From: a virus | DNA: 64,000 bases | Strand: one strand, 5' to 3' | IMG/VR virus record: IMGVR_UViG_3300020229_000001 | Span: 1 to 64,000 of that record | In this document: positions 1 to 64,000 of the stretch, one piece after another | Position numbering within the stretch: the stretch's first letter is position 1 | Layout of the letters: each line of letters opens with the position of its first letter | Program-made: the position numbers and the translations under genes | Notes under the pieces: model-generated | Database searches by the model: none | The model's input: the letters and a program-made list of their open reading frames with translations, nothing else | Told to the model about the DNA's origin: nothing

Positions 1-2265
1 GCTTGCCTGGTTTTTAACCAGGATACGTTTCCCCACTGCCACTGTCACCCCGTCAACCTGTAGCGCCGTGTTTAGAGCTCCCGTAAGAGTCGCCAGGACT
101 CCAACGCCAGCCCCGCCTGGCTGATTATAGTTAGCCGCCGGAACAAGCGCTGCTATTGTTCCATAATCGCAAGCGTCATGGAAATTAACGCCGGATGCGA
201 TTGAGTCTGCGTAGAGCTTGTTGACAATGTCGGTTGAGGCTCCTGGAGCCGTAGAAACGGTTCCTGTCGTCAAAGCTAGCGACGTGATTTGGTCAGACCC
301 ACCAGACTGATGAGTTGATGCGTGCGCCGTCGGCGTCCGAGAATCACTCAGCCTAGAGTCATTCCCCTGGGCCGCGGTTCCGGAAGTAGTCCCGTAAGAG
401 ACAGCAAGCGTCCTGTCGGCAGTTAAATTTCCGCCACCTGTGAGCCCAGTTCCCGCCGTGATTGTTCGTGTTGTTGGCGTCTTTCCGTCCAAGGCTGCCG
501 TCAACCCAGTAACATCTCCCGTTGCGACTTCCCTCGGCGCCCAAGTGTTCGTTCCCACATCCCAACCCAAGTACTGATCTCCAATTGGAGTTGTGCTTGA
601 AATTGGATTTCCTTGAAGCTGCGTGGCATTTTGACTGCTTGCAGCCTTGATGGAACGCACCAGGATGGTGGCGCCGGCAGGTGGAGCGGTAGCAAAGACA
701 ATATTCCCAGTTGCAAGAACAGCTTGGATTGTAAAATCAGTCGTTGGACGCTGATCAATGCCGCCAACCGAGACAATGTAGCCTTGAGGGTCAGTTGAAA
801 TGAACCCATTCAACGTTCCAAAAATGAGCGTTGATCCGTTCCCTGTAAACGTTGTGACAATTGTTCCTGGGCCTGTCAAAACCGACAGCAGTCCAGTTCC
901 AGAGACAGAGAGCCCATTGCCCACAATTACGCCACCCAAGGCGCTCGTTGTCGCCGGTAGTAGCGGAGTTGCATTTGCGCTCAGAACTCCGCTGACTGCG
1001 TTGATTGTCAGATTTGACCCAACTTTAATTCCGCCTAAAACACTTGCCGTTGCAATTGGTAGCGGCGTGGCGTCGGCGGAAAGCACTCCGCTGACTGCGT
1101 TGATTGTCAGATTTGACCCAACTTTAATGCCGCCCAAGACGCTTGCCGTCGCGATTGGAAGGGGCGTTGCGTCAGCAGAAAGAACCCCGCCAGTGATTGT
1201 CAAATTTGATCCAATCTTGACGCCGCCCAATACAGACGCAGTCGCCGTTGGTAGCGTGTAGGCCACATAATCGGACTGCTTGGAAATCGCAGTAATGCGA
1301 CCGTAAGTATCAACCGTGACAGTCAAAAATTGAGGCGTGGTGGCGCCGTATGTAGCCGCGGTTGCTCCGGAGGCAGGAAGACGCCCTGCCGCGAGCGTGC
1401 CGGACGAAATATTCGTCGCGTTGGTTGTGTCTGTCACCGCAGAAGCGGCGAGCGCAACCATCGTGACATTTGACAGGCGCCCCTTGGAATCAACGGTGAC
1501 CTGTGGCACCCTGGCGACGCCGGACTGAATGACGTTGTACGCGCCGGCTGACACGCCGGTCGGAGTCAGCGCTAAAACAGCCGAGCCAATCGAGGAGGTT
1601 ACCTCTCCCGAGAATGCCGGAAGCCTTCCAGCCGGAAGCGTCCCGCTGCTAATGTTTGACGCATTGGTTGTGTCAACGTAAGCAGATCCGGCCAAAGTTG
1701 CCCAGGTGGGGAGCGTGCCGTTGCTGAGCAGCACCTGGTTCAGAGATCCAACCGACAAGTATGCCGTGTGAGTTGAATCGGACTGGTAAACCAGAGATCC
1801 AGGGAATCCGCCTTGCAGAGACCCGTTAAGATTTGCGGAGACAACCGATGCGGAGAAGTTCCCGCTGCTGTCGCGTTGTACTAGAGCTCCAGGAACGTTG
1901 CCAGCCGCCGGCGTGACCCAAGCCAGGTAGTTTGTGCCAGCAGAGCTCAAAATCTGCCCGTACTGGCCAGCAGGAATGAATGTCACCGCTTGAGTGTCCT
2001 GGAACGCCCGAATGAAGTAGCACATGAGCCCTTCGTTAGCGTTTCTGGTAATGCCAAAGACAGTTGCTGAGTTTGTCGGATCACAAGGAATGATCCATTT
2101 CACCTTCCCCGAAGAAACATCCTTCTGAATGATGCCGTACAGAGCCAAAGTCAGATTGTCCATCATGGACGGCACTGACTCATGCGAGACGCTCGGATAA
2201 GGAATATCCGCGTTGCAGAAGTTGTTGTAGGCGTCTCCCCCTCCAGAATTACAGTCGCATGACAT
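1..2265 (-). CDS. Tail fibre protein, 3' end cut by window edge
   Basis: The frame stays open from an ATG at 2265 to base 1 (755 codons, no stop), so the C-terminus lies outside the window. Residues 1 to about 95 (MSCDCNS..., [22 protein letters not shown]) closely match the N-terminus of the collagen-like fibre at 56988-58202, which suggests a shared virion-anchoring module. The rest is beta-rich and low complexity. It has 33-residue repeats of the GGIKVGSNLTINAVSGVLSA type, an AHASTHQSGGSDQI motif and a VDGVTVAVGKRILVKNQ segment, all common in phage tail fibres. It follows the holin gene with a 2-base gap. The role is probably host-receptor binding. The fibre class is confident; the exact position in the virion is not. 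Confidence 0.85.
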   Translation of the reverse strand, partial: MSCDCNSGGGDAYNNFCNADIPYPSVSHESVPSMMDNLTLALYGIIQKDVSSGKVKWIIPCDPTNSATVFGITRNANEGLMCYFIRAFQDTQAVTFIPAGQYGQILSSAGTNYLAWVTPAAGNVPGALVQRDSSGNFSASVVSANLNGSLQGGFPGSLVYQSDSTHTAYLSVGSLNQVLLSNGTLPTWATLAGSAYVDTTNASNISSGTLPAGRLPAFSGEVTSSIGSAVLALTPTGVSAGAYNVIQSGVARVPQVTVDSKGRLSNVTMVALAASAVTDTTNATNISSGTLAAGRLPASGATAATYGATTPQFLTVTVDTYGRITAISKQSDYVAYTLPTATASVLGGVKIGSNLTITGGVLSADATPLPIATASVLGGIKVGSNLTINAVSGVLSADATPLPIATASVLGGIKVGSNLTINAVSGVLSANATPLLPATTSALGGVIVGNGLSVSGTGLLSVLTGPGTIVTTFTGNGSTLIFGTLNGFISTDPQGYIVSVGGIDQRPTTDFTIQAVLATGNIVFATAPPAGATILVRSIKAASSQNATQLQGNPISSTTPIGDQYLGWDVGTNTWAPREVATGDVTGLTAALDGKTPTTRTITAGTGLTGGGNLTADRTLAVSYGTTSGTAAQGNDSRLSDSRTPTAHASTHQSGGSDQITSLALTTGTVSTAPGASTDIVNKLYADSIASGVNFHDACDYGTIAALVPAANYNQPGGAGVGVLATLTGALNTALQVDGVTVAVGKRILVKNQAS
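986..1227 (-). repeat. 99-bp direct repeats inside the tail fibre gene
   Basis: A 44-base stretch at 986-1029 recurs at 1085-1128, giving a 99-bp period (33 residues). A shorter third copy follows to about 1227. Each unit encodes one copy of the GG(I/V)KVGSNLTI...GVLSA fibre repeat. The frame is preserved, so this is protein-level repetition rather than a DNA element. Confidence 0.8.
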
Positions 2266-2267
2266 AC

Positions 2268-2753
2268 TTATTTCCCTTCAGTTTTTTCGGGTTGATGACT
2301 GCTCCCGAAATAAAACGAGACAATCATAGCCCAGGACGCCCCGAGGCTCCCTACGAGCATCTGTAGCTCGGCGTGGCCTTCCCACATTTTGAGGTCTCCG
2401 GTCATTAGCCCGATTAAGATACCAAAGAATCCTAAGGTGACAACGCCGGCTAAGATTGGGACTGTTTTGGCGCCGGTTTTTGCCTGCATATCCCTAGCGC
2501 TTTGCCGGTCTTCCATCTCGAGCTTTTGCACGTCGATATTCATCGCCTTCATCTTTAGTTGAAGGTCAGCGTCGGCAGCCTTTATGGCAGCCAATTGCTC
2601 CGCGGTTAACGTGTTCTTTTGAAGCGCATTTTTAATGGCTTCCGGCGTCTTTTCGCCGCCCAAAATATTTCCAATTGCTTCAACGGCGATCCCAGCCAGG
2701 GGAGACCCCAAAAGCGAAGCAACGGTCGGTGCAATTTTTTTAAGCCACTCCAT
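2268..2753 (-). CDS. Three-TM holin (GTA/3TM holin-like)
   Basis: A 161-residue protein with a hydrophobic, amphipathic N-terminus (about 5-30), a charged central helix (about 45-95) and two clear membrane segments at about 98-118 and 130-149. This layout matches the 3TM holin family found in phages and gene transfer agents. It overlaps the start of the endolysin gene's downstream end by 14 bases, a typical lysis-cassette arrangement, and a purine-rich AAAGGA precedes the ATG. Its likely role is to permeabilise the inner membrane so that endolysin escapes. It is not similar to the holin-like gene of the second lysis cassette at 58521-58727. Confidence 0.75.
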   Translation of the reverse strand: MEWLKKIAPTVASLLGSPLAGIAVEAIGNILGGEKTPEAIKNALQKNTLTAEQLAAIKAADADLQLKMKAMNIDVQKLEMEDRQSARDMQAKTGAKTVPILAGVVTLGFFGILIGLMTGDLKMWEGHAELQMLVGSLGASWAMIVSFYFGSSHQPEKTEGK

Positions 2754-3288: not shown

Positions 3289-3300
3289 AAGCGGTGACTT

Positions 3301-3326
3301 GGCCGGCCCCATCTCTGGAGCCGGCC
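3301..3326 (-). terminator. GC-rich hairpin after capsid gene A
   Basis: A perfect 7-bp inverted repeat (3301-3307 with 3320-3326) with a 12-base loop lies just past the capsid stop codon. No U-run follows, so it may be an mRNA-stabilising or attenuating hairpin rather than a full terminator. A hairpin sits at the equivalent place after capsid B. Confidence 0.4.
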
Positions 3327-3343
3327 CGTGTCAACGTTCAGGA

Positions 3344-4549
3344 TTAGAGGCCTGTTGCGCAGGGCAGAGCGGCGCCATCAAACTGGCAGCGCTTGTACAG
3401 CACCGGCAATACGTTCTGCGGACGAATTGGCTGAATTGCACGGCTGATTTGGTAGATGTGCTGACCAAAATCGCCATACAAGTTACAGTCATTGTCACGG
3501 AAGTAAGTCCATTCCAGTTCGCCCATTGAGAGCTGCGGAGCAAACTTAAACGTGCCTTCCCCGGTGTACTGCTCGGGCACCAAACGCTTGAATGCGTCAC
3601 CAGCAATAATGAATCCTACCTCGTAAGGAGCAGCGACCCAAGCGGGGTTGCGGCGCTGCGCAAAACCAGTTGTGACCGCTGTCGAGACGATGGGGTTTAT
3701 CAAGACGAGGTTGCCACTGCCGTCAAGGCCGGTGGAGCGCAAAGGCTGCTGGTCGATCCCAAAGGCAAACCCGCGGTATCCCATGAACTGGTAGCCGGAG
3801 ATGCTTTCTTCGCCGAGCTTGAAGCTACCGGCGGAGAGATACAGCAAGTCTTCTTTGACGTCCTGGTCGTTCCGAATGGCTTCAATCGCGTCGGCGCCCA
3901 GCATGACTTGGAAAAACTCTCCTTCTTTTGAGGAGAACGGTTCAGCAAGCATTTCCTCGCGAAGGAACGTCCCAAGACGATACAATGTCTTGAAATTCAA
4001 ATGCGAGTCTGTCGTGTTGTTGGCGAACTTCGTGTTGATCTGCTGCATATCACCGGTCAAATTGTCGGTGAAAGAATGCAACGAGGAGCAGACGAATTTG
4101 ACGCCAGACTGGAGCAGGTACTGGTAACGAATATCAGCGTTAATGAGCTGAAGGATCGTCTTTTCAAGGGATACCTGGGCTTGAAGGTACGAGCCTTTGA
4201 ACGCAGTCCGAGCCTGCTTAACGCAGACCCGAGGGCCGGCGCCGCGAAGCGTCTGGAGGCTGAATTCATATTCGGTGGACCCAACAACGTCAGGAGTGGC
4301 GCCAACGCCGCAAAGCGAAAGATCGCTCACAAACGTAGGAGCTGCCAGAGAAGAGGCCGGAACCGCCATTTCCTCAACCACCGAGCGGACGACATCCGAA
4401 ACGGAAGGCAGGGTGCCACCATCAATCGAATTGATGTAAGGGCTTTTGCGGGCCAGAACTTTTGCGATCTGTCCGATGATGCGCTTCGTATCTTTGGAAG
4501 CGAAATTCTGAATCGTTGCAATTGGAATACAATCGTTTGAGGAGGGCAT
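3344..4549 (-). CDS. Probable major capsid protein (copy A)
   Basis: A 401-residue protein with no signal peptide or membrane segment. I assign it as capsid from position (downstream of terminase, portal and scaffold candidate, upstream of lysis genes), size, and a strongly conserved paralogue at the right edge (63472-64000). The C-terminal third, including GYRGFAFGIDQQPLRSTG, GELEWTYFRDNDCNLYGDFG and QPIRPQNV, is nearly identical between the two copies. No HK97-type motif can be called by eye, so fold and family are unproven. There is no Shine-Dalgarno sequence at the start. The 232-base leader holds a small ORF and an inverted repeat. An alternative is another abundant head protein. Confidence 0.7.
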   Translation of the reverse strand: MPSSNDCIPIATIQNFASKDTKRIIGQIAKVLARKSPYINSIDGGTLPSVSDVVRSVVEEMAVPASSLAAPTFVSDLSLCGVGATPDVVGSTEYEFSLQTLRGAGPRVCVKQARTAFKGSYLQAQVSLEKTILQLINADIRYQYLLQSGVKFVCSSLHSFTDNLTGDMQQINTKFANNTTDSHLNFKTLYRLGTFLREEMLAEPFSSKEGEFFQVMLGADAIEAIRNDQDVKEDLLYLSAGSFKLGEESISGYQFMGYRGFAFGIDQQPLRSTGLDGSGNLVLINPIVSTAVTTGFAQRRNPAWVAAPYEVGFIIAGDAFKRLVPEQYTGEGTFKFAPQLSMGELEWTYFRDNDCNLYGDFGQHIYQISRAIQPIRPQNVLPVLYKRCQFDGAALPCATGL

Positions 4550-11820: not shown

Positions 11821-11895
11821 AGCGGGGTGGAGCAGTGGTAGCTCGTCTGGCTCATAACCAGAAGGTCGGTGGTTCAATCCCACCCCCCGCCACCA
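11821..11895 (+). tRNA. tRNA-Met(CAT), initiator type
   Basis: A 75-base cloverleaf with encoded CCA. Arms: acceptor GCGGGG/CCCCGC with position 1 A opposite position 72 C (unpaired), D stem GAGC/GCTC, anticodon stem TCTGG/CCAGA with loop CTCATAA, and T stem GGTGG/CCACC with loop TTCAATC. The unpaired 1-72 position and the A11-T24 pair are hallmarks of bacterial initiator tRNA, and the body resembles E. coli tRNA-fMet. Of the three G-C pairs initiators usually carry at the base of the anticodon stem, one is T-A here. It lies on the strand opposite to nearly all genes. Confidence 0.93.
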
Positions 11896-11900
11896 ATTTT

Positions 11901-11975
11901 GCCGTGATAGCTCAGTGGTAGAGCAGGGCTTTTGTAAAGCTCAGGTCGTCAGTTCAATCCTGACTTGCGGCTCCA
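11901..11975 (+). tRNA. tRNA-Thr(TGT)
   Basis: A 75-base cloverleaf with encoded CCA, five bases after the tRNA-Met. The acceptor GCCGTGA pairs with TTGCGGC (two G-T pairs), D stem GCTC/GAGC, anticodon stem GGGCT/AGCTC with loop TTTGTAA (anticodon TGT), T stem GTCAG/CTGAC. It reads ACA and wobble Thr codons. Thr is very frequent in the collagen-like fibres of this phage, which may explain its retention. It is probably co-transcribed with the tRNA-Met. Confidence 0.93.
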
Positions 11976-15641: not shown

Positions 15642-15938
15642 TTATTGGTTGACGATTAGTTGATAGGTGAACAGGCCGGCAATGAGACGGCGACGATTCA
15701 CGGTATGGCTGCCAAATCTGGCTTTCCTGAGGTCGCGCAGCCTGGCTGAAACTGAGGCTTCTGAGGCGCCGGTGATGCTTGAGAGCTCTGTTAGCGTGCG
15801 CCACTTAGCGTCTCGCATGACGCTGAATACCGCGGTGAGTTGCGCTGATAGCCTGGTTTGATCCTGTTTTGGGCTGTAGGTCTTGCCATCAAAGTGCCAG
15901 GGCGCAGGCTGATCAAAGTTGAGTGTTTCTTGAGTCAT
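15642..15938 (-). CDS. Winged-helix DNA-binding protein
   Basis: A 98-residue protein. The central helix-turn-helix (RTLTELSSITGASEASVSARL, continuing RDLRKARFG) is followed by a beta wing (HTVNRRR...LFTYQLIV). This matches small phage winged-helix proteins thought to act in transcription control. Its ATG overlaps the hydroxylase stop. Being the last gene before the regulatory gap, it could control the terminase promoter; this is inference. Confidence 0.72.
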   Translation of the reverse strand: MTQETLNFDQPAPWHFDGKTYSPKQDQTRLSAQLTAVFSVMRDAKWRTLTELSSITGASEASVSARLRDLRKARFGSHTVNRRRLIAGLFTYQLIVNQ

Positions 15939-16591
15939 TCTCTGGTTGTGAGTTTGCCCACGGTTCTGTTGAGCAGGTTCAGGATGATTTGGGTGCGTTT
16001 GCTCTTCATTTTGCGCTCAAAGTCCAGGAATAAGACTGTCCTGGGTGTTTCGGTATCGTTTACGACCCAATGTTGGGTTGTATCGTCAAAAGCGACCAGT
16101 TCTCTGTCTTTCCAGGAGTAACGCTGGCCGTTGAGTGAGATGAAGCAGTTTGGGCTGTTGGGCGTTGTCAGGCCGATATGCACGCGGATGCAGCCGGCCC
16201 AGGGACCAGCGTGAGGATGGATCGTTGCCCTGGGCTCTAGGATGCTGAGCATCGCCAGGTGAATGTCTGGGTGCCGGCTGATGACGGCTAACGTCGCTGG
16301 GAAATCGGTTAGGGCTCGTTTGCTGGGCTTGGCGTACCATTTGAGGTAGTACTTCTTCCACAGGCCGTCGTTAGTGACCCTTGAGTCAAAGAACAGATCG
16401 CCTTGTATTGGGCTGGCTTTGTGCCTGGCGCGGGCTGTCTCGTCCAAGATGATAGGCAGGGCTGCCAGGAGATCCTGAGCGCTCTGGCGGGCTAGGATGG
16501 CGTCTGTGAGGAACGTCGTCGTTGGGTCCAGGCTGTTCCGATGAATCCAGGGGTTCAGCACCTCGGTCAAATATGAAATGAACCGGATCAT
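15935..16591 (-). CDS. Aspartyl/asparaginyl beta-hydroxylase-like 2-oxoglutarate oxygenase
   Basis: A 218-residue protein from ATG 16591, which overlaps the upstream stop (ATGA). The double-stranded beta-helix signature of AspH-type oxygenases is clear: IHPHAGPW (His127 predicted metal ligand), R136-V-H138-IGL, FDDTTQHWVVND (His174 second metal ligand), and R184 in TPRTVLFLDF for 2-oxoglutarate. AspH enzymes use only two His ligands for Fe(II), as seen here. They hydroxylate Asp or Asn side chains. The target is unknown; a phage structural protein or a host protein is possible. Such genes are uncommon but known in phages. Confidence 0.82.
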   Translation of the reverse strand: MIRFISYLTEVLNPWIHRNSLDPTTTFLTDAILARQSAQDLLAALPIILDETARARHKASPIQGDLFFDSRVTNDGLWKKYYLKWYAKPSKRALTDFPATLAVISRHPDIHLAMLSILEPRATIHPHAGPWAGCIRVHIGLTTPNSPNCFISLNGQRYSWKDRELVAFDDTTQHWVVNDTETPRTVLFLDFERKMKSKRTQIILNLLNRTVGKLTTRE

Positions 16592-16869
16592 TTCAACACC
16601 CCGTTCCAGCCAATTTCGCAATCGCGGATGCGCTCGAGCGTTTCCTCAAGTTTCTCAATTTGTTCTTTTTGCTTAGCTATGAGCAGATCAGCAAATTTGG
16701 AAATGATTCCATGCCGCGTGCCTTTACCAACGCCTGCTGGTATTGGCAAATGCATTGCAGCTTGAACGATCTCAAAAACGTCATAGGCGCAGTTATACGC
16801 GTCCACATATGCATTGCATCCGTTGGCTTCTCGGGTTGTTAACTCAACCGCGTTAGGGTGAATTTTCAT
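16588..16869 (-). CDS. Hypothetical protein with C-terminal coiled coil
   Basis: A 93-residue protein. The start at 16869 is chosen because GGAGG lies seven bases upstream and the ATG overlaps the previous stop. It has an N-terminal globular part with Cys (GCNAYVDAYNCAYDVF) and a C-terminal helix (KQKEQIEKLEETLERI). No family recognised. Confidence 0.6.
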   Translation of the reverse strand: MKIHPNAVELTTREANGCNAYVDAYNCAYDVFEIVQAAMHLPIPAGVGKGTRHGIISKFADLLIAKQKEQIEKLEETLERIRDCEIGWNGVLK

Positions 16870-33500: not shown

Positions 33501-36500
33501 CGTCGTATTTTTCACGACTGATGGAGCCATTCACCATTTTAGTAAACAGCTTTCGATTAAACGCCTTGATGTCATTGGCATCCGATGCATTTGCATAACG
33601 CATTGGCACATCGATGACAAAAATGGCCTCCTTTCCATCGGGGCCAAGCCCCGAAACCACATTTCCTTCGTGGGCATCTCGCAAAAATGTTTTTGCCTTT
33701 GGATTGTAGAATTCAAAAAGATTGCCTCTTACTATCCTGAAAAAGTTTCTTTGATTTAAATATGAATCAATTTGGTTAATTGATAACGGGTCTAAAATTT
33801 TGACGTAAGGCTGCTCCGTGACAACATACGCACCGGGATCAGATCCCGTTACCCTTCCAGTAACAAGGTCTGAAAAATTTCCCTGAACATTGGCTTCCGA
33901 TTCCTTTGCTTGATCGTGGATTCCCTTAACGGTGATTTTTGTTTCAGGGAAAAACTCATTGTGCAGTCGAATTCGGTCGAAATAATCACCCCAGTTTTCT
34001 TCAAACATGGGAATATTTGTCCGCTTTTCAACTTTGCCATTTTCATTTCCAAGAATGACTTGATGCTCGGCCCCTGATTTATACCCCGACGCCCTCCACC
34101 TCTCGAGAAAGTCCCGATGATCCAAAAGCGCCCCGTGCTGGCGTGCTGCATCAACTAGACGGGTGTCTTGCGCTCGCTTTGCTGCCTCTGACGCACGGCG
34201 ACTTTCAGTTTCTCCTCGAACCTGTTCTGATTCTGAATCCTTTCCTCTAACGGAACGCTCGAAAACACTTCCGAGATTCTCACTAGGTGCTCTCGACCCT
34301 TGTTTGTTTTGGCTGCTTCCTGCTCTACTAACCTCTCCCTCTCTGCTCTGTCTGGAATTAAGTATTCGTTCATATTCTTCTTTTTCGGCAAAATCGCCAG
34401 ATTCTTTAGGATTACCATCAGGCATAAATCGAGCCTGACCGCCTTCCACAGAGGAGCGCATCTCGGGAGTAATGGCGACTTTCCAGATTTTGGGATTTTC
34501 TCCAATCTCTACAACTTCTCCACCTTCTCCGCGTCCCCGGTTGTTAAGCGCAACAACTGCGTGAGAACGGTTGGTGAACGTCATTGTTGGAGCGATATTT
34601 GGATTTCCTTGAATGACGTACTCTTTCTTGCCTTCAACCTCACCCGTTTCAACTTTAGCACCCCATTGCTTGACGTACTTGCCAATTTCATTTGGTAGGA
34701 TTTTGTCGTAAAAGCCTGTCATGCCTTCGCCGCCAATATCAAGGTCTAATCCGTCAGCTTTTGCGTATGCCGTAACCGGATCTGATTGAGAATTGAGGTC
34801 AGCAATAAGCTTTTCTGCAAGTGGCTTCCCTATTGTGTCAGCTACCTCCTGAGCAGACAGTCCGGGTTTATTTATTACTGATACAGGAAGGTTTGATCCA
34901 TCTGTGTTTTGGTATGCACTGACATGATACTTTCCGTCACCGTCATTTATTAGGTCAATGGCTGAGACATGTTTACTTAGGGAATACCGATCAGCTTGCG
35001 CTTCTCCTCCGGTCCAGCCAATCCAATTCTTGCCGTCAGCAACAGCTTTTTGAAGTGCGTGCTTGAATAGTTGAATGGGCCAATCTTTGCGGAATGGTGC
35101 GTCGGCAACGCCGTCTTGACGCATTGCTCCTGCGTTCATTAAGGCTGTCCATTCCTTGCGCTCTTCAGGTGTTGCCGCTTGCCCTTTTGCTTCAATTTCA
35201 CGCACCCTATTATAATCGCGAAGTTGTTCATTTTTGTACCCTCTTTTCCTAGCCGCCTGATGCAGATCAGATTGCAACTCTTCAATCAGCCTGCCAGTTC
35301 CAAAGTCTTGAGTGCGCATATGCGCAACATAGTTTGGAACGTCTGGAAAGTGGCTTGAGCGAAACTCTCCAACTCCAACAACATCGCTTTCTCCCCTGCC
35401 ATCAATTCTGGCTTGATCTAATGTGTCATAAGTGCCTTGTTCTCCATCAATAAATTCAACATCAAAAGATCCATCGTTTAATTTTTTAAATGAAGCAATT
35501 GGGTCAATTTCTGTTTTAGACGGCATTCTAAGAACAACCTCTTCGTAGTTTGTGCCGCCGGGAAGCTTGTATTTGGAGTATTGCGTCTCGTCTTCTCCGT
35601 ACTCAGAATCGATTTGGTTGGTCTCAGAAACGAACTCTTCCGCTTCTGGTCTACTCATCCCAAACATTTCCATTGCAGATTTCTCTGCTTCCTCAATTGT
35701 GTTAAATTTTGCAGCGCCTCCCCACTCTTCAGCTTCAGAGTAGAACTCGCCTTCAAAGGACTTTGCTTCTCGCATCCTCTGCGTCTCAAACTTTGCAACG
35801 TAACCGTCTTTCAAGAACTGCTTAACGTCATCTTTCGTGACATATCCTTTCTCCGCCTGCGCTGCGTCAATAAACTGATTGATGCCGCTCCATTTCATTT
35901 CGTCAGGCTTCACGCCACTACCCTTCTGCGGGTCCAGAATGCCCCTTATTTGCTCCGCACTGGCCCGATTAGGCATCTTGTTTAATAGAACCCGTCCAGC
36001 CTTGCTGTAGAACCCGGGGGCGACCTTTGTAGGGTCTTCCTCACGCTCTGGCATGAAGCGAATGCCTGACGGGATTTTGCTAGATGCCCACATGCTCCCG
36101 CCTTGCGGATCTGGTCTGCCAGTTTCCGTATCAAATAATTTTTCTCTTCGTAATGTAGCCTGTTTTGATATTGGCTCTCCGTATAGTTTTGTTGCACCAA
36201 TGCTTTGAGCATATTTTGCAATTTCTCGGTACAAAGCTTCTCCGTATCCTTGTTTTTCAAACCCGGAAGAATTGGCAGACAGCACCACCTTCAGGAGCTC
36301 TGGGTCATACGGATCTCTAGTGACAGTTGCGCTAGCCGCAACCTTGTTAGACATTTCCGGGTAAATGTAAATGTGCGTGTCTGGGTCTTCTTCAATTTCC
36401 TCAACTCTAGATTTGTATTTTGGCAACCTTGCCTTCATTACGTTCAGCTCTTCTTGAGTTGGTACGCGACGGTATTCATCTTCCAATTTCTCAGGTATAA

Positions 36501-39500
36501 ACCGGACCTGCGCTTCTGCTGGCTGAACCGTTGCCTTGATTTCACCAGTGCCTTTTGGGTCGTACTTAGCAGAGACTGATCCCAAACCTTTTAGGATACT
36601 ACCACCGAGCGCAGGACGCTGTTCTTCTTTAGCCTCCTGTTCGGGCATAAACCGGGCCTTGTACGGGATCGGGTACTTATACTCCGTGTTTGCGTTCTCT
36701 TCGGCAGCAGTGTGCGAATCAAGGCGGAATGATTTGATGATCTGGTCAAAGCTAGACTGTTTATCGAGCTTGCGTTCGGATCGGCTAAACTTGTTCCGGT
36801 CTAGGTCTGGAATAGACTCAACGTCGGGCACATTTGGATTTGGTGCGCCGAGCATCTTTTCGTAAATGGTTCGCTTGAGCTTTGCAACATTTGGGTCTGC
36901 ATCGAGTCCCTGCCAGCCCGGGACACTTGCGTCGGGGTTCGCAAGGTTCGGAAGCAGCACCGTTCTAAACTCGTTCCAAAATTTTTGTGTGTCGCCGCCC
37001 CAAGGCTCAAACACTCCCTTGGCATATTTCTCATAAAGCCCAACCTTCCTACGAAGGTCGCTAATATCCCAAGCAGTTGTGTAAAAATTGCCAGCCTTTG
37101 AGAGGTGCAATTGCAATGGGACGATCTGCCGAATCTTTGGAGAAAACGCCTGATAGTTGCCTTTGTCATTCAACCGGGAGGCGTAATCGATATCAAGCAC
37201 CGTCCCGTCGCCCCGAGTCATTAGGTCGTCGTACTTAAACAACAGTTCCTTCATTGAGGCTGGAACAATACTTTCAGGAAGTGCAGCAATTGCCGCACGC
37301 TGCGCTGGAGTCATTTTTCCAGTGTAGTGCAGGTCTTCATCATCTTTTCCCTGCCCGCCTTTGATCGCCCGGAACCGTCCCAGCTCAGATGGATCTCCAG
37401 CGTTATCGATGGCATCACGGACCATTTGCACCCGGCGCTTAATATGCGCTACGGTTTCCTTGTTTTTGCGTTCTTTTGGCTTCCCGGTGGCCTCGTCGTA
37501 AGCAATCTGACGTTCTACTTGTACTCGCCCACCGACCGGGACTTCGAGTCCAACTAATTCAGGATGTAATTCTCCAAATCCCCGTTCCTTGTTTGGAACA
37601 TTATCCCCAGTCGTATCGTCTTGGTGATAAATCCAACTACCTTCAGATGCGTTGTTGTCAGTTAGGTTAACCGTCTGCACTACCTTACCATCTGCGTCCG
37701 TAACTACAGCCACTGGAATCGTCTCAAATTTCCCTGTGTCCTTAAAATACTTGTTAAGCAACTCTTTTGAGTTTTTTACGTCTTTTGGCGTAATGGGCGC
37801 AGCCACCGCTTCTCCCGGCTCTGCGTCAGTAAAGTCGCCGTCGTACTTCTTCATCTCCCGCTCGACGTTGCGTATCGCACGCATTACCTCAGGGCTGTAC
37901 GTTGCGCCAACAAGCCCAGAAGTCCACTGTTTGTACACCGCTGGCCCTGCAATTGCGTACAAGTGATTCAACGCAGATTTGACGTTGTTGCTACTGACAC
38001 GAGAAGCCAACCAGTTAATTCCTCGCTGCGCTGGAGACTCTGGGTCGCCAAAGAACCTTCCTGCGTGAGCTTCTGCGAGAGTTTCCTCCCGCATCAATTC
38101 AACAATCTTGTTCTTGTTAAAGTCGTTTGCCGCTTCATCCCAAACTCCAGCGGCTTCAGCGTAATCCTGAACTTGTTCTGCTGTCTTTCCTTCTAAATAT
38201 TTTTTGTAAAATTTGCCAAACAGATCATCCCGGGACATTCCGGGCTCCGCAGGAGTGATTTGTCGCACATTGCCATTTTCATCAACAGCCTCTGTGCCGA
38301 ATATTTTGTTGAACAAAGGTGCGATCCGCTTGCGGTATTCGTCCTTGCCAAACAAGCCGTGCCCAACAACTTCGTGAGCAAGGACGTTTGAGATAGCCTC
38401 CCCAGAAAGCTCTGCCTTTTTTAAAGCGTTTTCAACATTCACAAACACCGTATCTTTGGCAGGGTCCATCGTAAACCCGTCCTTGGCGGTGCCTTTCCCA
38501 ATCATAATGCCGTCAGCGGTTGGATTCTTTTCTAACGCCTGCTCAATAGTCATTGGTGCTCCAACCCCATTGAAATTAGGGTTTTCCGTAATCATCTTGT
38601 CGATAATTTGGCTAGATGTAAGCAACTCAATGTTCATGTTGCTGTTAGGAGTCAGCACCCCGTTTATGAGGTTTGACACTTTCCCTAGCGACAATTTAAT
38701 GCCATCCTCGAACGCTTGCCGGGCTTCCGGGGGCGCAACTATGTTTTCCTGATGGAGTCGATAAGCAAACTCGTAATCTGCTTTGGCCTTAGCCGCTTCA
38801 GGTGTATTTGCCCCGTTCACCATTTCGGCAAAATGCGTTTTCTGAGCCCGATCAAGGCGTTTTTCAGACTGCTTGATGACCTTGTCCCAGTTCAAATTTG
38901 TGACATTTTCTCGAGATTCTGGGCTTAACCCAAGCATAACCCTTTGAGCCTGTCGCATCTCTGCGTCTCGGTTCATTTTGTTGCGAATCGGATCATTCCC
39001 TACTAATCCTCCGAGAACCTGCCCGTGAATAAATCCATAGGTCGCAAACTCAGCCCACATTTGTGCAAACTCTTGAGCGTCCTTGTCTTCAAGTACTCCC
39101 ATTGCAACCATCATTGGCAGCATTGACACGTTGTGTTGCACAAAGACGTTTGCGTTTTTTTCAATAAAATCCAACGCTTTGCCGCCACCAGCTTTTTGCG
39201 ACCAGTTCAAAAATCGTTGCACCTCAGGAGATGCTGATTCCATTTTTTCTAACGCCTCAAAGCGGCCCAATTCAGCGCCGGATAACCTTCCAGCTTTAAG
39301 TAGCTGCTGCCCAAGGCGAGGCGCAGCCGCAATCGCCTTACCAGCAAGCTGAATTCCAAGCCCAGTTCCTGCGCCTTTTAACGCCCCGGCCAGCGGATCA
39401 TCAGACGCCAATGCACCAGCGCCAGCGCCAAGTAGAGTCGACCCGGCATATTTTACAGGTTTTGGAAGGCTTTCAAAGGCTGTTTTAGACCGATCAATGG

Positions 39501-40998
39501 TGTCTGCAATGTTGCCAAGTGGCTTTTCGAGCCACCCGGGCTGCTCTCGGGCAATTGCCTCCGCTTCACGCTGCGCTTGCAGTGCCGCGCTATCAGCGGC
39601 GTACATAACATTGCGAGCCTCACCAGTCTTTCCAGCCGCTCTCAACCCTCGACCTATTTGCTGACCTAACATGCTCAAATCTCGCACAACTGCCCCGCCC
39701 AACCCAAACACGTTTAATGGCGATGTCATGGCAATTGCGCCAACTTGTTCAGGGTCTTCCCGTAGACGATTGGCTTCTTTTATTTGAGCTTGCACCCCAG
39801 TTTCAGCGGCTGCTTCTGCTTGCAATCGACGGTTAGCCCTCGCTGCTTCAATATTGCCTCCAAATCCAAAAACAGCGTCTTCTGCTGGGGGCATCAACTT
39901 TTCAACAACATCAACCCAGTATTTTTTAACGGCAGGATCTTGCCACAGGTCATCAATTGTTCTGGCCAAAACAGCGGGATTTTTTTCCCTCTGCATGTGG
40001 TCGATATACTTTGCATTCATCCGAGTTGCAAAGTTCTTCCTAGCTTGATCCATTGCTGGAGCAGCCGCAGCTTCACGCAATGCAGCTTCTTGCTCCATAG
40101 AGATGGCAGGAGCAATTGATGGGTCTGCTAGAGTCCCTTCCGCAGTGGCTTTAGCAATGCCAACCTTAGCCTTGTCCCAAAGCATAGCTCTACCTTCAGA
40201 AAAATCCTTTGTTGCCTTTAAAAGGTCTTCTCTAGCCATCAAAAGGGCATCGCCAAACACCCGAGCGGACCGATACGTTTTGTCTCGGAGCGACAATTCA
40301 GCGTCTCGGATTTGCTGTTCGTTTAGTCCCTTTTTTTGCTCTTCAGTGAGCGTTTTGCCTTTCCCGAAATCTTCAGGGCTACCGACATACACTGCGCCTG
40401 TAAGAGCATCCTTTGCTAGCCTGCCAGCGCCAGCAGCAAGAGGAGGCAAAGACGCCAACATTCCAACCCCGGCCTTCCCTGCGTCTGCAATTAAATCAAA
40501 CGCACTTGTATCCTTGTTCCACCTGTAATCGAACAGAGACTGCAACTGCACAGGGTTTTCGGCCATGTTGTACCAAGGAACTGTCTTGTGTAGCTCCTCA
40601 AGGTCGTGCGGGTCGGTGATTCCTTTGAACACCGTTTCCGTAATCCCCTTGCGGGTGTTAGGATCAGTGATTCCAGCGTATGCATTAAACTTGCCTGTTG
40701 GGCCAACCGGGACTGGGGCAAACTGCCCAGAGCCGAGTGCTCCGCTGCCAATCAACGAAGACTGTTCTGGAGGCGCAGTGCTGCCGACCATTTCGGGACG
40801 AAACATCTCGCCGCCACCAGACAGCGTGCCACCAGAAGTCTGCATTCCGGGGGATTCCCCCTTGAATGCAGCTAGAATTTCTTCATCAGAAATGCCTTTT
40901 GCCTCTTCCTTGCTGTAAATAGGCTGACTGACAGATGGCTGTTCTCCCTTAAACGCAGCCAGAATTTCTTCGTCTGAAATCTTTGGAGTTTCAGCCAT
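30592..40998 (-). CDS. Giant polyvalent protein (3468 aa)
   Basis: A modular protein, probably carried in the virion and injected (inference). In order: a duplicated ISDEEILAAFKGE motif (7-19, 36-48); helical Ala-rich regions; a Gly/Ala-rich possible membrane segment near 515-560; zincin-like HEVVGHG (875-881); a GNAT-like QGYGEALYREIAKYAQ region (about 1500-1620); polyvalent motifs EELQSDLHQAARKRGY (about 1906) and GWTGGEAQADRYSLSK (about 1994); a kinase-PolyVal-like DAHEGNV (2441); long helical C-terminus to 3468. Five RFMPE/D-type motifs have their Arg at 1449, 1499, 1647, 2190 and 2520 and punctuate the modules. Active sites are read by eye only. Confidence 0.85.
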   Translation of the reverse strand: MAETPKISDEEILAAFKGEQPSVSQPIYSKEEAKGISDEEILAAFKGESPGMQTSGGTLSGGGEMFRPEMVGSTAPPEQSSLIGSGALGSGQFAPVPVGPTGKFNAYAGITDPNTRKGITETVFKGITDPHDLEELHKTVPWYNMAENPVQLQSLFDYRWNKDTSAFDLIADAGKAGVGMLASLPPLAAGAGRLAKDALTGAVYVGSPEDFGKGKTLTEEQKKGLNEQQIRDAELSLRDKTYRSARVFGDALLMAREDLLKATKDFSEGRAMLWDKAKVGIAKATAEGTLADPSIAPAISMEQEAALREAAAAPAMDQARKNFATRMNAKYIDHMQREKNPAVLARTIDDLWQDPAVKKYWVDVVEKLMPPAEDAVFGFGGNIEAARANRRLQAEAAAETGVQAQIKEANRLREDPEQVGAIAMTSPLNVFGLGGAVVRDLSMLGQQIGRGLRAAGKTGEARNVMYAADSAALQAQREAEAIAREQPGWLEKPLGNIADTIDRSKTAFESLPKPVKYAGSTLLGAGAGALASDDPLAGALKGAGTGLGIQLAGKAIAAAPRLGQQLLKAGRLSGAELGRFEALEKMESASPEVQRFLNWSQKAGGGKALDFIEKNANVFVQHNVSMLPMMVAMGVLEDKDAQEFAQMWAEFATYGFIHGQVLGGLVGNDPIRNKMNRDAEMRQAQRVMLGLSPESRENVTNLNWDKVIKQSEKRLDRAQKTHFAEMVNGANTPEAAKAKADYEFAYRLHQENIVAPPEARQAFEDGIKLSLGKVSNLINGVLTPNSNMNIELLTSSQIIDKMITENPNFNGVGAPMTIEQALEKNPTADGIMIGKGTAKDGFTMDPAKDTVFVNVENALKKAELSGEAISNVLAHEVVGHGLFGKDEYRKRIAPLFNKIFGTEAVDENGNVRQITPAEPGMSRDDLFGKFYKKYLEGKTAEQVQDYAEAAGVWDEAANDFNKNKIVELMREETLAEAHAGRFFGDPESPAQRGINWLASRVSSNNVKSALNHLYAIAGPAVYKQWTSGLVGATYSPEVMRAIRNVEREMKKYDGDFTDAEPGEAVAAPITPKDVKNSKELLNKYFKDTGKFETIPVAVVTDADGKVVQTVNLTDNNASEGSWIYHQDDTTGDNVPNKERGFGELHPELVGLEVPVGGRVQVERQIAYDEATGKPKERKNKETVAHIKRRVQMVRDAIDNAGDPSELGRFRAIKGGQGKDDEDLHYTGKMTPAQRAAIAALPESIVPASMKELLFKYDDLMTRGDGTVLDIDYASRLNDKGNYQAFSPKIRQIVPLQLHLSKAGNFYTTAWDISDLRRKVGLYEKYAKGVFEPWGGDTQKFWNEFRTVLLPNLANPDASVPGWQGLDADPNVAKLKRTIYEKMLGAPNPNVPDVESIPDLDRNKFSRSERKLDKQSSFDQIIKSFRLDSHTAAEENANTEYKYPIPYKARFMPEQEAKEEQRPALGGSILKGLGSVSAKYDPKGTGEIKATVQPAEAQVRFIPEKLEDEYRRVPTQEELNVMKARLPKYKSRVEEIEEDPDTHIYIYPEMSNKVAASATVTRDPYDPELLKVVLSANSSGFEKQGYGEALYREIAKYAQSIGATKLYGEPISKQATLRREKLFDTETGRPDPQGGSMWASSKIPSGIRFMPEREEDPTKVAPGFYSKAGRVLLNKMPNRASAEQIRGILDPQKGSGVKPDEMKWSGINQFIDAAQAEKGYVTKDDVKQFLKDGYVAKFETQRMREAKSFEGEFYSEAEEWGGAAKFNTIEEAEKSAMEMFGMSRPEAEEFVSETNQIDSEYGEDETQYSKYKLPGGTNYEEVVLRMPSKTEIDPIASFKKLNDGSFDVEFIDGEQGTYDTLDQARIDGRGESDVVGVGEFRSSHFPDVPNYVAHMRTQDFGTGRLIEELQSDLHQAARKRGYKNEQLRDYNRVREIEAKGQAATPEERKEWTALMNAGAMRQDGVADAPFRKDWPIQLFKHALQKAVADGKNWIGWTGGEAQADRYSLSKHVSAIDLINDGDGKYHVSAYQNTDGSNLPVSVINKPGLSAQEVADTIGKPLAEKLIADLNSQSDPVTAYAKADGLDLDIGGEGMTGFYDKILPNEIGKYVKQWGAKVETGEVEGKKEYVIQGNPNIAPTMTFTNRSHAVVALNNRGRGEGGEVVEIGENPKIWKVAITPEMRSSVEGGQARFMPDGNPKESGDFAEKEEYERILNSRQSREGEVSRAGSSQNKQGSRAPSENLGSVFERSVRGKDSESEQVRGETESRRASEAAKRAQDTRLVDAARQHGALLDHRDFLERWRASGYKSGAEHQVILGNENGKVEKRTNIPMFEENWGDYFDRIRLHNEFFPETKITVKGIHDQAKESEANVQGNFSDLVTGRVTGSDPGAYVVTEQPYVKILDPLSINQIDSYLNQRNFFRIVRGNLFEFYNPKAKTFLRDAHEGNVVSGLGPDGKEAIFVIDVPMRYANASDANDIKAFNRKLFTKMVNGSISREKYDEIKPFLTDPSASGALEGAQVRFMPDNENIPGALEGIKIEPKEEERLPALASIAPLPKTITDERGMFSVVIGAKPGEHGYTYRTASELRDQLKTVSGQKAAVETWGELQLKKQRQLELLAKADEAAKNAKKPEKTAEFEAKKAAYAEKVAALDTQIEEMRSQFPEKMQNMSPEDAAWKAQVKKLNRSFEEVSLKATPAPFTANPLGIRSMAELGDSVHDILKSDGFNGILKDFFGLDGLEIRPIAGTWQGKVEPSFDLVHPELTFDKAKQITQLLTLAFAQDAGITYKPSIDLKEGTQAAYLIHSTKLTDDQLKLAFDKAREVGVDVSTTTDGKGIKALNFGTEDFASKLSEIQKSASIDQSYETIVASELYETEKIFKGRDNQRVLPVWLQATSGGQSLLQRSIDSLLIDYAKAAAAQGYIFDPALYAKRYGLSDSDAKYIKDKLYPVDPMARSASPLLAGTEILPVRSTYTLAGKRETAVPDMIHALQNRAASDGVILPGDYSPRAMDIISSVVADEVQQHMARAALNPKSPNAIGWYDAALKRMKGMYSQLFPWLEVGSPQHDADKSLVFDAVLGIASQGNDVFENGKMATRVTLMLENGKTLPEIVTALHGTFGDKTAAIENNILKLHELLTRHTPSQLRALLFKTDTVANWNKNLKQDTSLYYNGEPLSVEGGKNQMVTGFMVFGPKIGSFINNLHGDYSTLTADLWYTRTWNRILGRSFKYDPLKEGHQFERFQDSLIEEYNRNQALKKGKEYTDRVLIKKGVEEPYLYGEDAPRWSKKEFHKLLEDSGAMLEFAEHLEKVFRTGSFKGKTELRRAAKNWVQDRTTPLGAPRASNERAFQQTTMEQAQARLAQAGIVVTIADMQAALWFNEKELFGKYGAATSGAEPADYADAAKFSLDIIQAGGLFQVDRKGETVRLLSEADEANLTGVKSPNKGLMKQLMEKEKAIKAAEKLRKEAEGEDEE

Positions 40999-56987: not shown

Positions 56988-58202
56988 TTAGTAAGTCCCA
57001 AATGCGGTTTGAGTGAGTACGTTATCACGAACAGACACAGACGTTGTCAAATACAAAGTATTCCCGTCCCATTCTGCGGCGTTGGCTTGAGGAGAAGCCA
57101 TCAAAGTTGCAGGCGTTTGAAAATAAAACGGAGCTTGGTTGGCAGAAGCGCCATTTGCCCTAAATGTCTGCGGGCCTGTATATGTATTTGCCCCAAGGCT
57201 TTGAACTCCTGTCGCTCCATTATAACCTGTCCCGCCTTGATACCCGGTTGCCCCCAGCCCGGTAGCTCCCTGAAAACCCGTCGCGCCCAGCCCGGTCGCC
57301 CCTTGAAAACCCTGAGTCCCAATACCCGTGCTTCCTTGAAGGCCCGTCGCGCCCAGCCCAGTCGCTCCTTGAAAACCCTGAGTCCCAATACCCGTGCTTC
57401 CTTGAAGGCCCGTCGCGCCCAGCCCAGTCGCTCCTTGAAATCCAGCACCTGTACTGCCTTGGTATCCTGTCGCGCCCGGTGATCCAATTCCAGTAGCGCC
57501 CGTAGCCCCAGCGGGTCCGTTGGCTGGCCCTGTGGCCCCTTGATAACCCGTAGCGCCCTGAAATCCAGAGCCTGTACTTCCCTGCAATCCTACCCCAGTT
57601 GCGCCTTGATAACCAGTTGCACCGACTCCAGTTGCGCCAATTCCAGTGCTGCCGCGAAGCCCAGTACTGCCTTGATACCCCGTACTTCCGTCGTTGCCAG
57701 CAACTCCAATACCTGTGCTGCCCTGATACCCGGTGCTGCCTTGATAACCTGTTGCTCCAGCGCCAGTTGCGCCAATTCCTGTACTTCCTTGCAACCCTGT
57801 ACTGCCTTGATACCCGGTACTTCCGTTGTAACCAGTTGCGCCTGACCCAGTTGAGCCACGAAGCCCAACCCCGGTCGCCCCTTGGTAGCCTGTACTCCCC
57901 TGATACCCAGTCGCCCCGATGATGCTTGAAGCTTGAAGCGCCCTGATAAAGTAGCACATCAAGCCCTCGCCTTCATTTCGAGGAACCCCAAAAACTGTTG
58001 CGCTTTGAGTGGGATCGCAAGTAGTCCAGACCACCTTTCCGCTCACTACGGATTTTTGCACCGTCCCGTACAGTGCCTGCGTTAAATTTGAGATCAGGCT
58101 CGGGACAGATTCTGCCGATACGCTCGGGTATGGAACCTCCGGGGCGCAGGCGGCGTAGTATGCGGAATTTTGCCCAAATGGACTATTGCAATCGCAGCTC
58201 AT
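56988..58202 (-). CDS. Collagen-like tail fibre with shared N-terminal anchor
   Basis: A 404-residue protein. Residues 1 to about 95 are clearly homologous to the start of the fibre at 1-2265 ([35 protein letters not shown]). From about 95 to 330 Gly-X-Y collagen repeats follow ([10 protein letters not shown] and similar, Thr common at Y). A C-terminal globular tip (about 335-404) ends [11 protein letters not shown]. It probably trimerises as a triple helix and presents a receptor tip. Different distal parts on the same anchor suggest fibre swapping. Confidence 0.85.
57206..57921 (-). repeat. Collagen-coding minisatellite
   Basis: DNA encoding Gly-X-Y triplets. A 66-bp unit (22 residues) is clearly repeated, for example starting at 57303 and 57369. 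The reading frame is kept, so length changes would add or remove whole triplets. Confidence 0.78.
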
Positions 58203-59245: not shown

Positions 59246-59481
59246 TGTGCGCTCCTTCCAAGAACTTTTGCCCATAACTCTTTGCGGTCTCGCTCGCACT
59301 CAAGAATTGCTTCTTTAAGGTCGTTAATTTGATCGCCGAGAGCCTTCATATGCTGATTTCGCTCTTCGTTTAGCCTTGTGATTAACCCTTTATTCATTTG
59401 CTGGATAAAGCCAATCGCGACGCAGGCCATTAAAAACGGAAGCCCTTGGTTTTTTGACGCTTCTATGAGTAATTCGTTCAT
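59242..59481 (-). CDS. TM plus coiled-coil lysis-region protein
   Basis: A 79-residue protein. One membrane helix (about 13-30, GLPFLMACVAIGFIQQM) is followed by a coiled coil (ERNQHMKALGDQINDLKEAI). This resembles i-spanin or BhlA/UviB-like holin layout. It overlaps the endolysin start by four bases. Its exact lysis role is not certain. Confidence 0.5.
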   Translation of the reverse strand: MNELLIEASKNQGLPFLMACVAIGFIQQMNKGLITRLNEERNQHMKALGDQINDLKEAILECERDRKELWAKVLGRSAQ

Positions 59482-59483
59482 AA

Positions 59484-62400
59484 TTAATACGTTCCGAATG
59501 ATGCTGCTGTTAAAATTGCGTCTCTGTTGGCTATAGTAAACGAAGTGGCAGTTGCTGCTGCGTTTGTTGGGTTAGCTCCAACAGTAAACGTCGTGAGGCT
59601 GTTGATTGCAGTCACATACAATTGTGCCGCCCCAGTGATCCCAGACGCAATTGCCGCCCCGACAACGAGGCCAGACGTTGTCCCAGTTGTTAGCGTAATA
59701 AGCGCACTTCCCGTTGTCCAAGTGCCAGCCAATGAGACAAGTGCCGTCAGGTATTCAGTGTTTCCATCCCATTCTACGGAATGCACTACTGGCGTTGTTT
59801 GAACTACCCCAGCTTGAAACTTTGTTGGGGCACTCGTAAGCGTTCCTGCTGCAAAATTTTGCGTTGAACTTGCGGTAAAAGTATTACTTGCTAAAACTGC
59901 GTTAGTGTTTCCCCTTGAAGCAACAAGGCTAACGGTTAACGAGTCAACGCCAATTTGCGTTCCAGTTGCGCCTGCCACTAAACTCACTGTCAAAATAGCC
60001 CCTTGGTTGCCTGTACCAGAGGTAATTGTGACTAAAAGAGGCGCAGTTATATTTCCTGTAAACCAGCTTGGACGAACAAGAGAAACTCCAGTGCCAATGC
60101 TACTTACAACCCAAGGACCACTTTGCGCCAACGCCGTTTGACTCAAAAAAACAGTATCTCCAGTTGCAAGGGTTTTACCATCAACTGTCAAAAGAGATGC
60201 CGTAACAAGCGTTGTAGGCGTTGAGTTGTAAAGTATTAGAGCCCCAGATCCAGTTGCCCCAGCACCACTGCTCATCGTGATCTGCGTCGCGCTATCAACT
60301 GTTTTAATAACGCCCGCAGCCACCCCCAAATTGATGCTCATCCCAACAACCGGAGTTATTGAGGAGGTTGCAAAAGTAATAACACCAGAGTTTTGAGTCC
60401 AACTTGCTCCTGCAATCGTTCCGGCAGTTGCGGGAATTACGTTTGACGTTTGCCTGACTGTAACTAATTGCGGCCCTCCAACAACGGCCCTTGCGTCTCC
60501 TGCGGTTGTAGAAGCAGTCCCACCATTTGCAATCGAAACAGGCGTTGCAATTGCTGGACCTGTAGCTCCAGTGGCTCCTAGCGTGCCAATTCCTGTGGCC
60601 CCGGTAGCTCCGACAGACCCAATCCCGGTTGCTCCAGTCGCTCCAATACTTCCAATACCCGTAGCTCCCGTAGCCCCAGCGGACCCAATGCCCGTGGCCC
60701 CCGTGGCCCCGATTGTGCCGATCCCTGTGGCCCCAGTCGCGCCAATGCTTCCAATTCCCGTTGCGCCCGTCGCGCCTTGCGTTCCAATTCCCGTGGCTCC
60801 TTGAATACCAATGCCCGTAGCTCCCGTTGACCCCTGTGTGCCAACGCCTGTGGCTCCTTGGAACCCTGTAGCGCCCAACCCTGTAGCACCTTGAAGTCCT
60901 TGCGTTCCGACTCCTGTGCTTCCCTGAGTTCCGACCCCCGTGCTCCCCTGAAAGCCCGTCGCACCAAGCCCGGTTGCCCCTTGCAAACCTTGAGTTCCAA
61001 GCCCGGTTGCTCCTTGCAATCCCTGAGTGCCGACGCCAGTAGAACCCTGATAACCAGTGGCCCCCAATCCAGTTGCTCCTTGTAAACCTTGAGTTCCAAG
61101 ACCCGTCGCCCCTTGTAAGCCTTGAGTTCCAAGACCCGTCGCCCCCGTCGCCCCAATGGCTCCGATGCCAGTAGCCCCAGTAGATCCAATATTTCCAATC
61201 CCGGTTGCTCCTTGCGTCCCGATGCCTGTAGCCCCCGTGGACCCCTGAGTTCCGATCCCGGTTGCGCCCTGATAACCAGTTGCGCCCTGCCCGGTTGCGC
61301 CCTGTACCCCGGTAGACCCAATGCCAGTCGCCCCTTGTAGTCCTTGTGATCCTATGCCTGTGCTGCCTTGATAACCAGTTGCGCCAACGCCAGTTGCACC
61401 TTGGGACCCAATTCCTGTCGCTCCCTGATACCCAGTGCTTCCTTGATAACCCGTTGATCCAATTCCAGTTGCGCCTTGATAGCCCGTGCTTCCCTGTAAT
61501 CCAGACGTAACAATAGCCCAAATCAACTGATGGTTATTGGCAAAATTCGTTGTACCGCTGCCGCCAGAAGTTTGAAGCGTTACAGGAATTACAATGTAAG
61601 AATTGTCGCCAATTGTGGGAGTGCCATTAATTTTCCAACTTTGATAATTATCGGAATTGTTTTGATCTTGAATAACAAACGTGTCCCCATTTTTATAAAG
61701 CGGGAAAAATACATCAATGTCATTTCCATTGCCGTCAATGTGCGAGAATGCAATATTTGCGGAAAGTCGCTGTGTAGCGTTGTCCCATAAAATGTGCCCA
61801 TTGGTAATTGGCCCAGTAGGAGGCAGAACTTGAGTAGACGTGTCCGCTTGGTAATTAAAGAATGAGGCCGACTGCCCGTTTGCCCCCGTCAACCCGGTCG
61901 CGCCCTGATACCCGGTACTCCCAATCCCAGTCGCCCCTTGATTTCCTACACCAGTGCTGCCCTGATACCCGGTGCTGCCCTGATCCCCGGTTGATCCGAT
62001 TCCAGTAGCCCCTTGATATCCAGTTGAGCCAATCCCAGTGCTACCTTGATACCCGGTCGAGCCGATGCCAGTTGCCCCCTGTAACCCTTGAGATCCAATC
62101 CCGGTGCTGCCCTGATAACCAGTGGCTCCGATGCCCGTAGCTCCCGTGTCTCCTTGAGTTCCGACCCCGGTTGCGCCCTGCGTTCCAACGCCCGTACTGC
62201 CTTGCAATCCAGTTGCGCCGACGCCTGTAGCCCCTTGAATTCCAACGCCAGTACTGCCCTGCAATCCCTGAGTGCCAACGCCAGTGGCCCCTTGGAACCC
62301 CGTTGCGCCCAACCCCGTTGCGCCCTGAGATCCCTGCGTGCCGATGCCAGTCGCACCCTGCAAGCCCTGAGTGCCGATTCCAGTAGAACCCTGAAATCCC

Positions 62401-63401
62401 GTCGCACCAAGACCAGTTGCGCCCTGAATGCCCTGAGTTCCAACCCCCGTTGCCCCCTGCAAGCCAACTCCTGTTGCCCCTTGCGTGCCGATACCCGTGG
62501 CTCCGACGATTCCGATGCCTGTCGCGCCCTGCAATCCAATCCCGGTGCTGCCCTGATAACCCGTGGCTCCGACGCCCGTGGCTCCCGTGTCTCCTTGAGC
62601 GCCTTGCGTGCCGACTCCTGTGCTACCCTGATACCCGGTCGAGCCGATGCCCGTGGCTCCCGTGTCTCCTTGAGCGCCAATCCCAGTGCTACCTTGATAA
62701 CCCGTGGCTCCGACGCCTGTAGCTCCTTGAACCCCTTGCGTGCCGACTCCTGTGCTCCCTTGAGTTCCAACCCCCGTGCTCCCCTGAAAGCCCGTCGCAC
62801 CAACCCCGGTAGCGCCTTGCAAGCCCGTGCTGCCTTGATTTCCAACTCCTGTTGCCCCCTGAAGACCAACACCAGTGCTGCCTTGATAACCCGTGGCTCC
62901 GACAGTTCCGATGCCTGTCGCGCCCTGCAATCCGATGCCTGTGCTGCCTTGATATCCAGTTGCCCCGGCCAAACCAGCCCCTGTTGAACCTTGAGTTCCA
63001 ACCCCGGTTGCCCCCTGCGTGCCGATACCCGTACTGCCCTGATAGCCCGTGGCTCCAACGGTTCCGATGCCCGTGCTGCCTTGAGTTCCAACCCCGGTTG
63101 CCCCTTGGAAGCCAACACCAGTGCTGCCCTGATAGCCTGTAGCCCCGAACCCCGTAGCCCCAACCAATCCAGCTCCTGTTGAACCCTGATACCCGGTCGC
63201 CCCCTGATACCCGGTCGCGCCGATACCGCTGCCGCCACCCCCGCCATGAGTAGCAATGTATTCCAGCAACGACAGGACGTATTGCCTGTAAACCGCTGTA
63301 GACAAATTGCTGTGAATGCCCACAATTCCAGATGCTCCGGCAATCTGCTGGAGCAAAGTGAGTGCGTATTGCTGAAAAACTGCGGTAGACAAATTAGACA
63401 T
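59484..63401 (-). CDS. Large collagen-like fibre protein (1305 aa)
   Basis: The N-terminus has a duplicated motif ([19 protein letters not shown], then again [19 protein letters not shown]), a probable anchor. Two collagen-like blocks follow: about residues 58-507 and 633-949, Gly-X-Y with Thr and Gln common ([15 protein letters not shown]). Between them is a beta-rich domain (about 510-630). A C-terminal globular domain (about 950-1305) ends [13 protein letters not shown], similar to the end of the fibre at 56988. It probably forms trimeric fibres. The gene directly follows capsid copy B. Confidence 0.85.
60556..63230 (-). repeat. Collagen-coding repetitive DNA, two blocks
   Basis: Blocks at about 61880-63230 and 60556-61503 encode Gly-X-Y triplets with many near-identical modules of 15 to 30 bases. 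Long shadow frames arise in them because the triplet period removes stops in other frames. The gap between the blocks encodes a non-collagen domain. Confidence 0.8.
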
Positions 63402-63424
63402 AACCTTGCGTAAGCTAATCAGAA

Positions 63425-63448
63425 GGGGCTGGCAATCTAACCAACCCC
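63425..63448 (-). terminator. Hairpin after capsid gene B
   Basis: GGGGCTGG (63425-63432) pairs with CCAACCCC (63441-63448), 8 pairs with one wobble, eight-base loop, 24 bases past the capsid stop. No long U-run. Probably lowers read-through from the capsid into the fibre gene. Confidence 0.45.
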
Positions 63449-63471
63449 CTCTTCATTAACTCACGTTAAGA

Positions 63472-64000
63472 TTAAAGCCCAGTTGCTGCTGTGCTGCAAG
63501 GCAACGGCTGACCGTCAAACGGGCAACGCTTGTACAGAATTGGCATGACATTTTGCGGACGAATTGGCTGAATTGCACGGCTGATTTGGTAGATGTGCTG
63601 ACCAAAGTCGCCGTACAAGTTACAGTCATTGTCGCGGAAGTAAGTCCATTCCAGTTCGCCCATTGCAAGCTGCGGGGCAAATTTAAACGTGCCTTCTCCA
63701 GCGTAATTTTCTGGAACCAAACGCTTGAATGCGTCTCCTGCAACAACAAAGCCTACTTCGTAAGGAGCAGAGACCCAATCAGGGTTCCGGCGCTGGGCAA
63801 ACCCGTTCGTGACAGCAGTGCTGATGATAGGATTTACAAGCACCAGATTGCCGTTGGAATCAAACCCCGTGGATCGAAGCGGTTGCTGGTCAATCCCGAA
63901 CGCAAAGCCACGATAGCCTTGGAACTGGTATCCAGAAATCGAGTCTTCACCGAGTTTGAAGCTGCCAGCGGTTAGGTAGAGCAAGTCTTCCTTCACGTCA
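63472..64000 (-). CDS. Probable major capsid protein (copy B), 5' end outside window
   Basis: The frame is open from the right edge to the stop; 175 residues are visible. They align without gaps until the last few residues with the C-terminus of copy A (3344-4549), including KEDLLYL.AGSFKLG, GYRGFAFGIDQQPLRSTG, CNLYGDFG and QPIRPQNV. No local start codon is credible (the apparent first Met is a Val codon matching Val in copy A). As in copy A, a hairpin follows and a fibre and lysis set come next, although copy B has a large collagen-like fibre gene inserted first. Confidence 0.8.
   Translation of the reverse strand, partial: DVKEDLLYLTAGSFKLGEDSISGYQFQGYRGFAFGIDQQPLRSTGFDSNGNLVLVNPIISTAVTNGFAQRRNPDWVSAPYEVGFVVAGDAFKRLVPENYAGEGTFKFAPQLAMGELEWTYFRDNDCNLYGDFGQHIYQISRAIQPIRPQNVMPILYKRCPFDGQPLPCSTAATGL

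Follow-up and report, generated by a model that had tools for sequence, protein, structure and literature searches.

A 94,385-base virus contig, of which the first 64 kb (positions 1-64000) form the window, carries the same structural set twice, which raises the question of whether one phage possesses two sets or whether two phages have come to lie on a single contig. The doubled set consists of a capsid, a GH108 endolysin and a fibre with a common anchor, and its copies are spaced ~60.1 kb apart, with the stop codons of the two capsid genes separated by 60,128 bp. We refer to the sources of the two sets as phage A and phage B. Capsid A (3344-4549, minus strand, 401 aa) shares 85% identity at the protein level and 77% at the DNA level with capsid B, whose gene (3’ part at 63472-64000, minus strand) crosses the window edge and reaches position 64686 of the contig to encode 404 residues. 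The endolysins of phage A (2740-3312, minus strand) and phage B (58724-59299, minus strand) both match the Pfam families GH108 and PG_binding_3 (PF05838, PF09374). The fibre of phage A (1-2265, minus strand) is truncated by the window edge and is about 1,308 residues long in another contig (G002), and the fibre of phage B is located at 56988-58202 (minus strand); both proteins begin with MSCDCNS and are ~66% identical over their aligned N-terminal part. A collagen-like fibre of 1305 residues (59484-63401, minus strand) is present only in phage B. A preliminary description, made from the sequence alone, had reported these two modules, their shared fibre anchor, the endolysin in each and the confinement of the collagen fibre to module B, and all of these observations are borne out.

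That description had also proposed reading the flank to the right of the window, and the contig there encodes an FGE-like protein, a scaffold-like protein, a second portal (69571-71970), a second terminase (74357-76231) and early genes, before ending within a second copy of a giant gene. The FGE-sulfatase-like protein (PF03781, contig 64748-65731) is located directly upstream of capsid B; it occurs in relatives of B and was not found in A. Comparison of the contig with itself, likewise proposed, revealed a collinear duplication in which 3.4-31.9 kb matches 63.5-94.4 kb on the same strand, with gene order almost wholly kept and a DNA identity of 68-91% that greatly exceeds chance expectation. 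By pair, DNA identity is 77% for the capsid, 71% for the portal, 69% for the terminase, 68% for an ATP-grasp-like gene and 91% for the end of the giant gene. The region from 31.9 to ~56 kb is single-copy and holds the rest of the giant gene, the tail genes and glycosyltransferases. Terminal redundancy is ruled out, as copies that are only 68-91% identical are too different, a point on which the preliminary description was correct. Several other genes were observed in the phage A part of the contig. An aspartyl/asparaginyl beta-hydroxylase (PF05118, E 1.3e-36) is encoded at 15935-16621 and has no match in the relatives compared. At 28358-29059, a gene with an Erv1/Alr-like sulfhydryl oxidase match (PF04777, E 4.4e-8) adjoins the ATP-grasp-like gene and has a homologue in B. 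In addition, tRNA-Met and tRNA-Thr genes lie on the plus strand at 11821-11975, the strand opposite to that of the phage A genes, and the tRNA-Thr region has a 76-bp match of 93% identity in the related record 3300034104_004892.

The right end of the contig is informative. Its final 127 bases (94259-94385) are identical to positions 31736-31862, with the first mismatch at position 31735, and the contig contains no longer exact repeat and no other repeated 127-mer. A usual largest k of the SPAdes assembler is 127, and we infer that an assembler operating at this k produced the contig. In published simulations, contigs from metaSPAdes and MEGAHIT end in sequences of maximum k length where the assembly graph branches (PMC10914622). 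We read positions 31863-94385 as a 62,523-bp circle closed by the 127-bp repeat, which is phage B (31863-64000 in the window, minus strand), to which positions 1-31735 are attached. The attached part is a fragment of phage A (minus strand) that contains the fibre, lysis genes, capsid A, portal, terminase, early genes and the C-terminus of the giant gene. The preliminary description had suggested that everything between the two capsids could be one full phage genome; a complete genome is indeed present, but it spans 31863-94385, and the capsid-to-capsid interval instead runs across the switch between A and B. The circular closure of B also bears on whether two related phages were integrated as tandem prophages in one host chromosome. 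Two related genomes do lie head-to-tail as this would require, but no integrase was seen among the proteins scanned, which included only some of the small ORFs, no host genes were seen between the copies and no relative of the lineage was found in contigs of prokaryote genomes; together with the circle, these results make tandem prophages extremely improbable.

Related viral records contain one set per genome. Each of the 19 related records tested, several of which are fragments, has a single portal, and a capsid match was found in 14 of the 18 records searched, again including fragments, with never more than one per record. Phage B was compared with 3300037189_006948 (G008), a circular record of 60,631 bp with an 87-bp end repeat, which matches the B circle throughout its head, tail and early genes. 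Identity between the two is 97% for the capsid protein, 92% for the terminase, 91% for the portal and 81-90% for the main tail-region proteins, and the collagen-like fibre has a related gene in this record (62%) and none in A. The two circles are collinear gene for gene, which assigns the tail genes at 41-57 kb to set B and shows B to be coherent as one genome. Another relative (G009) is 64,406 bp long and has a 127-bp end repeat. The lineage, which is uncultivated and has genomes of ~60-64 kb, is represented by 3300037189_006948 and 3300034104_004892, which resemble A and B in gene order, capsid, portal and terminase and in having one set per 60-64 kb genome; unlike A and B, 3300037189_006948 has a giant-gene C-terminus that is only ~20-30% identical to theirs. 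Among 50,697 phage records, no match to the portal or capsid was found and the terminase gave one weak partial match of 27%; searches of PHROGs returned weak matches only.

These comparisons speak against a single phage of ~94 kb or more with two interchangeable structural sets, which the preliminary description had offered as one of its two readings. One contig does bear two full sets; however, the relatives are single-set phages of ~60-64 kb, the packaging and early genes are doubled along with the structural genes, the tail of B goes with the head of B in the circular relative, and A is found separately with a different continuation (see below), such that we consider this reading to have almost no chance of being correct. 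In a portal tree, B falls within a clade of single-set phages and A occupies a separate branch. Duplication within one genome was rejected, as B groups with other single-set phages. The two sets are orthologues of two phages rather than paralogues within one; the strong resemblance of the capsids noted in the preliminary description therefore stands, but not their paralogy.

Phage A was recovered in a different sample as IMGVR_UViG_3300021473_000005 (51,805 bp), whose capsid is 100% identical to capsid A and which differs from the window at one position over 1-31986. This independent assembly departs from the window at position 31987, remains ~91% identical up to 33336 and thereafter mostly does not align. 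Because it matches up to 31986 and departs at 31987, the switch from A to B is placed inside a 251-bp stretch common to both phages (31736-31986), of which the contig-end repeat forms the first 127 bp. Pattern scans of the viral contigs of sample 3300021473 did not find a phage B copy of this stretch, so A’s continuation in that sample looks uncontested by B. At k = 127, A and the B circle share only two runs, of 251 and 170 bp, and the 251-bp run begins exactly at the vertex at which the contig ends; thus, both the position of the switch and the contig end are predicted by this comparison. A second contig, 3300021079_000006, has an identical A-to-B join. Its sequence is identical to 28332-94385 throughout, and it is therefore probably not independent, as it may share a DNA pool and assembly graph with the contig studied here. 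Among the viral contigs, none that carries A’s own continuation was found for sample 3300021079, where A is represented by a 9.8-kb fragment, and low coverage may explain its absence.

The switch lies within the giant gene, which as assembled is a hybrid polyvalent-type ORF of 3468 residues (30592-40998, minus strand) that joins a C-terminus from A (30592-31735) through the common 251 bp to a remainder from B (31987-40998). One polyvalent-type domain (Polyvalent proteins, PMC5512222) was matched, Kinase-PolyVal (PF18762, E 3.6e-16) at residues 2274-2464, and a PDB search with the C-terminus returned insignificant matches only. Over the last ~914 residues (30592-33336), the giant proteins of A and B share 92-98% identity, whereas the rest is mostly ~22-57% identical, except for one island of 88%. 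In G007 and 3300037189_006948, whose portals are ~91% identical to that of B, the C-terminal part of the giant protein is only ~20-40% identical, and a third phage with one portal, 3300023184_000121 (62,817 bp), has a copy of the module that is 87-88% identical in DNA. This distribution suggests that recombination has passed the C-terminal module between these phages, apparently recently, which would account for the near-identity of A and B at the join and for a shared stretch long enough to confuse an assembler. A run of 251 identical bases amid ~91% identity also exceeds the length expected from random spacing of differences, making a recent exchange between A and B at this stretch plausible, although any misjoin at k = 127 must lie in such a run.

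The apparent mobility of the module raises the alternative that the contig records a real recombinant, either a concatemer formed during coinfection or a hybrid genome, with the 251-bp stretch as the junction between A and B. The apparent exchange of the module and the recurrence of the join in 3300021079_000006 favor it, but A’s normal continuation is present intact elsewhere, the contig end sits exactly on a 127-mer vertex, and the contig’s left end shows no return to B, as the two are not connected by any exact repeat of at least 40 bp. We regard such a recombinant as very unlikely, and give a similarly small chance to the related proposal that A and B recombine naturally at the giant-gene stretch and that the contig mirrors hybrid molecules in the sample.

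We strongly favor the conclusion that two related phages that occur together, each having a single ordinary structural set, were misjoined into a chimeric contig during assembly; the doubling is very probably artefactual rather than biological. In this mechanism, phage A would contribute positions 1 to ~31.7 kb and phage B its entire circular-mapping genome (31863-94385, 62,523 bp); both have the 251-bp stretch where the giant gene encodes its C-terminal part. A de Bruijn assembler at k = 127 would have entered this stretch from A, exited into B, rounded the B circle once and halted upon meeting the same 127-mer again, and presumably the A-to-B join exists in no DNA molecule. In its other reading, the preliminary description proposed related phages in head-to-tail order, and the contig does show this arrangement, but the join of the two phages is very probably a misjoin, an outcome that it had itself set against that reading. 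The contig end resembles the maximum-k breakpoints described in the COBRA paper (PMC10914622), being a 127-bp sequence that occurs elsewhere at a point where two genomes share sequence, and differs in that the contig overlaps its own interior, the path having already crossed the shared stretch one time. The assembly artefacts named in the CheckV paper (PMC8116208) include concatenated genomes and chimeras between related viruses, and the present contig similarly places more than one genome on one assembler contig, but here the genomes are two phages at ~70% identity.

We advise against counting this record as a 94-kb phage that has two structural sets and against analyzing the giant ORF at 30592-40998 as a single protein. 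Filters that detect duplication through identical k-mers would probably be blind to this contig, and two genomes that are 70% identical are likely to escape them; we suggest as a simple screen a search for an exact match of k length between a contig’s end and its own interior.
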